Shown here piece after piece: positions 18,638 to 20,788 of a stretch of 64,000 bases of DNA. The DNA is from Tomitella biformata AHU 1821 (GTDB lineage: Bacteria > Actinomycetota > Actinomycetes > Mycobacteriales > Mycobacteriaceae): contig NZ_BAVQ01000003.1 in assembly GCF_000524475.1 (NCBI RefSeq), forward strand, positions 1 through 64,000. Reading direction: 5' to 3'. How positions within the stretch are numbered: the stretch's first letter is position 1; every line of letters begins with the position of its first letter. Below the pieces are notes generated by a model. The model was not told the DNA's origin, did not search any database, and saw only the letters and a program-made list of their open reading frames with translations. A program made the translations under genes and the position numbers.

Positions 18638-19024
18638 TCACGCGACGCCGGCAGGCGCGTTCACGTCGGCGGGCAGTGCCGCCTTCGCGATTGCGACCAG
18701 GCTGGTGAACGCAGCGGGATCGCTGACGGCCAGCTCGGCCAGGTTCTTGCGGTCGATCTCCACACCGGCGAGCTTGAGGCCCTGCCAGAAGCGGTTGTAG
18801 GTCATGTCGTTCTGGCGTGCCGCGGCGTTGATGCGCGTGATCCACAGCTTGCGGAAATCGTTCTTGCGCTGACGACGGTCGCGGTACGCGTACGTCATCG
18901 AGTGGAGCATCTGCTCCTTGGCCTTGCGGTACAACCGCGAACGCTGGCCCCGGTAGCCCTTGGTGGACTCGAGGATTGTACGACGCTTCTTATGGGCGTT
19001 GACTGCCCTCTTTACGCGTGCCAC
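18638..19024 (-). CDS. rplT: Ribosomal protein L20
   Basis: L20 is an assembly protein of the 50S subunit. The 128-aa sequence starts [15 protein letters not shown] and continues with [17 protein letters not shown] and [20 protein letters not shown], which are diagnostic. The C terminus carries a short Ala-rich extension (DVNAPAGVA) beyond the usual 118-120 residues. The start is GTG. In other bacteria L20 represses its own operon, and the infC leader here carries an attenuator that could serve such control. Confidence 0.97.
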
Positions 19025-19087: not shown

Positions 19088-19285
19088 TTACTTGAGGCCG
19101 AGCAGGCGCTTGATGCGCGGGGCGTCGTTCTTACTGACGTCCGTGGTGCCATCAAGGCGACGCTTGCGAGTCGACGTCTTGTGCTCCAGCAGGTGGCGAC
19201 GGCCAGCCTTCTCGCGGCGGAGCTTGCCACTGCCGGTGACCTTGAAGCGCTTTGACGCGCCGCTGTGGGTCTTTGCCTTGGGCAT
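19088..19285 (-). CDS. rpmI: Ribosomal protein L35
   Basis: L35 is a small 50S protein of 65 aa, recognised by [20 protein letters not shown] and the basic middle [15 protein letters not shown] use the ATG at 19285, with GAGG six bases ahead; the frame is open for 18 further codons upstream, but family members begin at MPK. It lies between infC and rplT in the conserved operon order. Confidence 0.97.
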
Positions 19286-19393
19286 AGTGATCCTCAGTTC
19301 TTCATTGTTGTGTCCTGGCAGCCGGGCCTTGCGACCCAACTACCACGTATGTCTGTCTATCGCTGCCGGCTGCCCGTGAGGACGGCCCCAGCT

Positions 19394-20083
<690 letters not shown>

Positions 20084-20177
20084 GGGGCCTCCTCGGTAGG
20101 GTTATCACTCATACGTCCGCAGGCGATGCGGCGGAGCCCTCTACCCGGCCTACCCCTGTCAGGGTTGGCGCCTCAGC

Positions 20178-20212
20178 AAAAAGGACCTCTCGCGATTTCT
20201 CGCGAGGGGCCC
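20178..20212 (-). terminator. Attenuator in the infC-rpmI-rplT leader
   Basis: Read on the minus strand, a 13-bp stem (one mismatch, one G-U pair) with a GAAA loop is followed at once by five T residues (plus-strand A at 20178-20182). This is a textbook intrinsic terminator, but it lies upstream of infC rather than behind a minus-strand gene. It should therefore work as a regulated attenuator for the IF3-L35-L20 operon. Confidence 0.75.
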
Positions 20213-20410
20213 GTTACCGACCGATCCACGTCGCTGTCCCCAGATATCAAAACTTCTAGGTCTTGCGGCGGACCGGACCACAAAGCTGTCGTCTCCGAAT
20301 ACCTGCTGTTGAGAGCGCATATTCGGGGCAGTTGCCCGGTGGTGGGAGCGGGACTCCACTTGTTGCCCCCGGAGTATCCGGAAGCGGTCGTGAATGAAAC
20401 GATACCAGCC

Positions 20411-20788
20411 ATGACCGATAACTCCCAGCCAGGCCCCGACAACACAACCGAGATCGACGGCGAACTGCCCGTCCGCGAACTCCATGACATTCCCGCCATC
20501 GAGGTCATCTCCCGCGCCGCGGTGATGCTGATGAGCTCGTCCGCCGAGAAACTCGGCCTGTCCTCGGACGATCCCGACAACAGCCCCCACCGCGACCTCG
20601 ACGAGGCCCGCCGGCTGATCACAGCCCTCGCAGGCCTGGTCACCGCCTCCGCGGAGTACCTCGGACCGCACGCCGCACCGCTGCGCGACGGGCTCCAGAG
20701 CCTGCAGCGCGCGTTCCGCGAGTCCTCCGCGATCCCCGACGAGGCCGGCCAGGGCCCCGGCGAGAAGCAGACCGGGCCTGTGTACTAG
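20411..20788 (+). CDS. DUF1844 protein
   Basis: This is a 125-aa protein of the DUF1844 family, often found divergent to infC in actinobacteria, of unknown function. The recognisable part is VISRAAVMLMSSSAEKLGL, then HRDLDEARRLITALAGLVTASAEYLGPHAAPLRDGL, an all-helical, mildly amphipathic region, and a polar C-terminal tail. I give the ATG at 20411; a GTG at 20390 in the same frame has a better ribosome site (GGAAG, 5-nt gap) and may be the true start. A large hairpin terminator follows. Confidence 0.8.
   Translation: MTDNSQPGPDNTTEIDGELPVRELHDIPAIEVISRAAVMLMSSSAEKLGLSSDDPDNSPHRDLDEARRLITALAGLVTASAEYLGPHAAPLRDGLQSLQRAFRESSAIPDEAGQGPGEKQTGPVY

Follow-up and report, generated by a model that had tools for sequence, protein, structure and literature searches.

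The infC operon of Tomitella biformata is preceded by a conserved leader that we read, with good confidence, as an autogenous transcription attenuator of the L20 type, to which an ATC start codon adds feedback by IF3. The leader lies on the minus strand of the window, that is, the whole stretch of 64,000 nucleotides analysed here, and related leaders stand ahead of infC throughout the class. Their anatomy is conserved, it bears covariation across hairpin Pa, P1, helix P2, the terminator and an antiterminator, and it contains the site motif of the L20_leader of Firmicutes (Rfam RF00558). Judged by sequence comparison, this is a real attenuator of infC across the class, and it most likely responds to L20; from these observations we infer L20 as the ligand, the direction of control and the working of the switch in this particular organism.

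Pfam domains give the minus-strand gene order infC (IF3), rpmI (L35), rplT (L20), a gene for a SpoU-type rRNA methylase and pheS, and a divergent DUF1844 gene begins at 20411 (Table 1). The first-pass annotation had placed a stem and a T5 tract about 95 bp ahead of a non-ATG infC start, which is confirmed on the minus strand, with 94 nt between T5 and the ATC codon. The interval that it had assigned to this control, 20084-20212, rightly runs from the terminator to the start and is too short, the conserved leader being larger and starting near 20391. A scan of 4 kb returned six terminator-like sites against 1.9 (sd 1.5) in shuffles, so that a single match proves little. Across 216 distinct infC leaders, a hairpin of -14 kcal or better followed by a T-tail was found within positions -200 to -20 in 133, compared to 84 of 1080 dinucleotide shuffles; in the other 83 leaders no terminator reaches -14 kcal. 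These 216 leaders derive from 245 infC loci, 11 of which gave no IF3 anchor, while 18 of the 234 anchored loci were dropped for having the same last 150 nt as another, for being too short or for containing N; the mis-anchored loci L028, L035 and L065 were kept and scored as P1 misses. Elsewhere in the window, a second terminator-like hairpin (20849-20830, minus strand; 8 pairs and a T-run) lies antisense to the 3' end of the DUF1844 gene, and no minus-strand gene was identified for it to terminate.

Table 1. Features of the infC leader and operon in the window, in the direction of infC transcription
Feature	Positions	Strand	Basis
Motif A (CGACCG), 5' end of the conserved leader	20385..20390	-	Family conservation; model match starts here
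Hairpin Pa (GCTTCCGG..CCGGGGGC)	20365..20385	-	Covariation across leaders with register specificity
P1 (AAGTGGAGTCCCGCTCCCACC), L20-type hairpin; 5' strand and loop form the putative antiterminator strand	20341..20361	-	203/216 leaders, RF00558 pattern, R1 match
Motif B (TGTGGTCCGGTCCG), candidate 3' strand of helix P2/H2	20269..20282	-	Conserved; P2 covaries across leaders
Predicted antiterminator partner of P1 (CGGGCCCCT), overlapping the terminator 5' arm	20205..20213	-	Class-level covariation; -10.2 kcal in the window
Terminator hairpin, 13 pairs with one C.A mismatch	20183..20212	-	Terminator scan, leader conservation
T5 tract	20178..20182	-	Directly after the terminator hairpin
Shine-Dalgarno GAGGAGG	20088..20094	-	Read from the window sequence, ahead of ATC
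infC (IF3)	19394..20083	-	Pfam IF3_N and IF3_C; ATC start 20083-20081
rpmI (L35) region	19088..19303	-	Pfam Ribosomal_L35p; start position approximate
rplT (L20), presumed ligand	18638..19024	-	Pfam Ribosomal_L20

Upstream of the terminator the leaders share a GACC motif, followed by hairpin Pa and then by P1, which is located about 130 nt ahead of the terminator. P1 takes the form AAGYGGAG-loop-CTCCCACC in 203 of the 216 leaders when one mismatch is allowed per half. Within these 203 the AAG, GGAG and CTCCCACC columns are 92-100% conserved, a figure that is due in part to the choice of these leaders by the P1 pattern. Pa and P2 covary across leaders in a register-specific manner according to permutation scripts, on which the covariation claims rest; RNAalifold, run on the MAFFT alignment A1, recovered P1 and H2, missed Pa and gave little covariation (covariation term -0.29). 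The partner of motif B in the window is uncertain, because the covariance model R1 described below pairs ACC with GGU near 20303 instead. Just before the terminator, CGGTCG (20227-20212, minus strand) is complementary to the CGACCG of motif A (20390-20385); both are conserved in the family, and the two do not covary. Pairing of motif A with motif B or with motif C was tried and rejected, being conserved, yet without covariation (z -0.5 and 0.4). The start codon of DUF1844, the divergent gene, is about 21 nt away from the 5' end of the leader (20390), and at this distance the two transcripts probably have overlapping 5' ends or promoters. The infC 5'UTR of Mycobacterium tuberculosis likewise overlaps the divergent lysX (PMC3207917; this and the other papers cited by PMC number are represented here by the portions of their text that were available).

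The leader is found in the expected place in related genomes. Among 198 genomes of the phylum, the exact P1 pattern occurred in 15 of the 17 that belong to the class, with one match each and every one of the 15 at infC by coordinates. Outside the class it was met in 5 of 181 genomes, with no infC found beside the match; four of these matches are on contigs other than that of infC, and the fifth genome (G440) was judged by anchor search alone. The covariance model R1 was built on 30 leaders judged to be outside the family of the window organism, taken from 65 candidates (alignment A1) among which Corynebacterium loci had been left out; the division into leaders inside and outside the family was manual, going by locus numbers, and approximate. 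In the genome of the window the sole match of R1 is 20298-20391, at infC (E 0.002; 2.9e-5 within the window). R1 matches 84 of 101 family genomes, and in 82 of these 84 the best match is placed 105-331 nt ahead of infC. Six family matches are situated away from a checked infC, the match in G030 was not placed, its infC being a fragment on another contig, and in 17 of the 101 genomes R1 gave no match.

The first-pass annotation had proposed a search of infC leaders for a conserved antiterminator pairing. Such a pairing, a candidate for the terminator-excluding alternative of RF00558, covaries at the level of the class, while in the window's own sequence it is weak. It joins the 5' strand and loop of P1 to the 5' arm of the terminator. 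In leaders folded unconstrained to the end of this arm, the arm-P1 pairing took 48% of the mass (mean of 108 leaders), and each segment other than P1 took at most 6.5% of the arm pairing mass. In the 134 leaders that have P1 as well as a terminator of -12 kcal or better, P1 5' strand and loop paired with their own arm at -14.70 kcal, against -12.72 (sd 0.19) when arms were permuted, a value reached by 0 of 300 permutations; because the leaders share ancestry, neither this count nor those that follow are probabilities. When each P1 type was represented by a single leader (n=58), the matched value was again reached by 0 of 300 permutations, and the signal was gone in segments shifted by at least 16 nt. 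The same was seen outside the family, by a like manual and approximate division that placed the Corynebacterium loci on this side, and inside it (0 of 500 in both), as well as for one leader per P1 type inside the family (n=20; 1 of 500), and the P1 loop alone also bears the signal (0 of 500). Examples of the arm pairing are GGAGATCT/AGATCTCC and GGAGTTTCT/AGAAACTCC in the Corynebacterium leaders L044 and L049, and GATCC/GGATC with AAGCGG/CCGCTT in L228.

The number of expected antiterminator pairs fell from 6.3 in truncated leaders to 1.3 once the 3' arm was included, and was 3.3 in truncated leaders whose arms had been swapped between leaders. Of the 134 leaders, 83 had at least five expected pairs when truncated, compared with 40 when truncated with swapped arms and 15 when full, and 116 of the 134 full leaders formed the terminator. 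Since the pairs are lost in the presence of the 3' arm, P1 belongs at any one time to the L20-type hairpin or to the antiterminator, and by these folding predictions the conserved antiterminator is exclusive of both the P1 hairpin and the terminator. Several other pairings were rejected. Motif B in the role of antiterminator partner gave -12.24 matched and -12.05 swapped, no support; z was 1.3 for the P1 3' side and -1.8 for the segment before P1 in the antiterminator role, and -1.4 for the terminator 3' arm as a strand hiding the Shine-Dalgarno sequence.

A switch of this kind would work as follows. The nascent P1 5' strand and loop would pair with the 5' arm of the terminator and block it, which would allow read-through into infC-rpmI-rplT. 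L20 present beyond its rRNA sites would bind the AAG-N-[P1]-C-A-CC..GG junction and keep P1 closed, the arm would then be freed, and the terminator would form and stop transcription. The leader RNA released at this stop would measure about 200 nt and would, in Streptomyces, be the 'sRNA' Scr1601, and the ATC start would contribute the usual IF3 feedback at translation. The earlier suggestion that the attenuator could sense free L20 draws support from the conserved L20-type hairpin and the covarying antiterminator, binding of L20 itself being presumed; nothing was found in favour of its companion, the sensing of 'initiation state'.

In the window the antiterminator is not only weak in energy (Table 1), it also has 1.3 expected pairs, and P1 is favoured at 0.66. 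This weakness would suit a decayed switch, that is, a fixed partial terminator in this genome that perhaps lowers read-through or guards against the divergent gene, with regulation left to the rest of the class. The leaders of three congeners (L083, L084 and L085), which keep P1, point in the same direction: they have no terminator by the criterion of -14 kcal and a T-tail, and a broken T-run such as CCTTACTG comes after the hairpin region. In the 11 leaders with P1 type AAGTGGAGTCCCACTCCCACC, which is characteristic of mycobacteria, the antiterminator is still weaker (mean -8.9). We nevertheless regard decay as doubtful, given that the window retains P1, Pa and the terminator intact, that a model derived from other families matches the module and that the two forced states of the leader are only 1.7 kcal apart, a gap which by itself fits a balanced and a partly decayed switch alike.

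The ligand of the proposed attenuator is suggested by its likeness to RF00558, the infC-rpmI-rplT leader of Bacillus subtilis, with which the window shares the operon, the AAG-N-[H1]-C-R-CC..GG site and an intrinsic terminator before infC. In B. subtilis, binding of L20 at the H1/H2 junction stabilises the terminator of the leader (PMC6097659). The RF00558 consensus reads AAGa-[AGAAGC ACCC GCUUCU]-C-gCC...GGc, and actinobacterial P1 with its flanks reads AAG-Y-[GGAG..CUCC]-C-ACC...GGU. Element order, the single C and CC:GG are the same, whereas the R:Y pair is g-c in RF00558 and A-U in the P1 leaders, the H1 letters are AGAAGC/GCUUCU in the former and GGAG/CTCC in the window-type leader, and the latter has Pa as an extra hairpin. 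The L20-site pattern AAG-N-[H1]-C-R-CC, read off the Rfam consensus, is present in the window at P1 (20361-20341). The form AAG-N-hairpin-C-R-CC occurs in 210 of 216 leaders versus 24 of 1080 mononucleotide shuffles; the GG partner downstream of CRCC is clear in other families and less so in the window.

With the RF00558 model itself, neither the window leader (E<=10) nor 20 relatives (E<=5) gave a match, and the model exceeded its cut-off (58.7 bits) in 0 of 60 class genomes, so the window leader is not filed under RF00558, though it would work like this L20_leader and is probably related to it. Mimicry of 23S rRNA by plain sequence was also considered and rejected. The 23S rRNA of M. lepraemurium has AAGTGGA in a stretch which we take to be the L20 site, and short-word alignment of the leaders with that rRNA locus gave weak, scattered matches among those listed; the window organism's own 23S rRNA was not found in its assembly. 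What L20 leaders have in common, according to PMC7247131, is an AA dimer with two consecutive G-C pairs. The candidate deltaproteobacterial L20 leader of that paper has these elements as its presumed L20 site, on a different scaffold and with another gene in its table; the portion of the table available contains no actinobacterial L20 leader.

Outside the class, the general L20-site motif was found in 9 of 22 infC leaders versus 6 of 440 shuffles (22 of 30 loci entered the test, eight having no anchor, and L274 and L276 among the loci seem mis-anchored). Some of these leaders read AAGAAGAAGC..GCTTCTCACC, nearly the letters of RF00558. In L275, L287, L291, L294 and L297 the RF00558 model reached 28-45 bits, below its cut-off of 58.7, with matches ending 34-78 nt before infC, and from their sequence these are probable unlisted L20 leaders. 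T-box leaders above cut-off are also found in infC loci (L275, 2651-2875; L291, 592-368; L294, 522-247). We lean towards the view that L20 attenuation of infC-rpmI-rplT is one homologous system of Bacillota and Actinomycetota, in which the AAG..CRCC..GG contacts would have been kept, the helix, scaffold and antiterminator would have co-evolved and Scr1601 would be the terminated product.

Covariation reveals a switch and not which ligand works it, and the same P1/antiterminator device might answer to IF3, to another ribosomal protein or to an RNA-binding protein. Arnvig et al. saw a likeness between the infA and infC leaders and considered a shared regulator (PMC3207917). Such a ligand is unlikely in our view, as the conserved paired and unpaired letters are those of the RF00558 L20 site and are bridged to it by the loci below the cut-off, rplT is within the operon and R1 has a single match in its own genome, at infC.

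L20 attenuation also offers a way to interpret a known Rfam family. RF02830 (Scr1601; cut-off 100 bits) lies above cut-off just upstream of infC in all six named Streptomyces loci tried (L055, L056, L062, L066, L069 and L075), and in L218 it reaches 171 bits and ends at the terminator. Of 118 class genomes, 7 have a match above cut-off, and each of these belongs to genus g49, which we take to be Streptomyces; in four genomes outside g49 it scored 20-25 bits, each time in the infC leader (4/4), and no match was obtained in the window or its genome. Scr1601 is the Streptomyces version of the window-type infC leader, and differs in that Rfam types RF02830 as an sRNA gene, whereas the window-type leader is read here as an attenuator; it may be re-read as an infC attenuator and be better typed as a cis-regulatory leader. 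The available parts of two papers on Streptomyces RNAs contain no attenuator or L20 reading (PMC8388888; PMC3765725). The first counts scr1601, credited to Vockenhuber et al., among S. coelicolor ncRNAs, which together with the Rfam type would agree with a leader that mainly makes a trans-acting sRNA and controls infC secondarily. We consider this very unlikely: the S. ambofaciens homologue is in a UTR (PMC8388888), 12 earlier sRNAs, whose names are not given, resembled 5'UTRs (PMC3765725), the P1-pattern matches of the class are at infC throughout and antiterminator covariation is a cis feature.

Since RF02830 and RF00558 already exist, the first-pass statement that no actinobacterial leader of this form is well described was partly wrong: the Streptomyces branch is listed, as an sRNA, and has a Firmicutes counterpart. 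As regards a description as an attenuator, a literature search of partial coverage found no account of an actinobacterial L20 attenuator.

The translational layer is ordinary. The infC start of the window is a codon other than ATG, GTG or TTG behind a strong Shine-Dalgarno sequence, a feature of infC genes autoregulated by IF3, and comparison of start codon and Shine-Dalgarno sequence showed no difference from such genes (E. coli ATT, Streptomyces ATC). For Streptomyces, infC is said to start with ATC and to be autoregulated by IF3 (PMC5472188), and the proposed sensing of free IF-3 is plausible in the window. ATC is the infC start in 206 of 216 actinobacterial leaders, a near-universal rule in the class, so this layer is not special to the window. 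The ten remaining rows comprise the three mis-anchored loci, five that by eye seem offset by one residue (L175, L207, L226, L233 and L241) and two that differ: L040 (Lentzea kentuckyensis) has GTG at the usual ATC place, and L025 (a Kutzneria MAG) has GCG where ATC usually stands. That only the ATC/IF3 layer regulates, the hairpin being a chance or structural terminator-like element, would accord with the near-universal ATC and with the autoregulation stated for Streptomyces (PMC5472188) and is highly improbable in the face of a conserved terminator and of terminator/antiterminator covariation.

Feedback by ribosomal proteins in Actinobacteria has been summarised as 'almost no information' (PMC8470358). 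The infC 5'UTR of M. tuberculosis measures 326 nt, with a UTR/CDS read-density ratio of 2.6 in exponential and 4.9 in stationary phase, and the authors bring up the L20 case of B. subtilis by analogy (PMC3207917); an attenuator could explain this excess of infC leader over infC message, and the same reading offers a function for the Rfam sRNA Scr1601. The L20 leader has been described as confined to Firmicutes (PMC6097659). If the homologous system proposed here is true, it would instead be a widespread ribosomal leader that crosses phyla. At the level of the class, a leader with a covarying antiterminator provides a testable switch for an essential operon.
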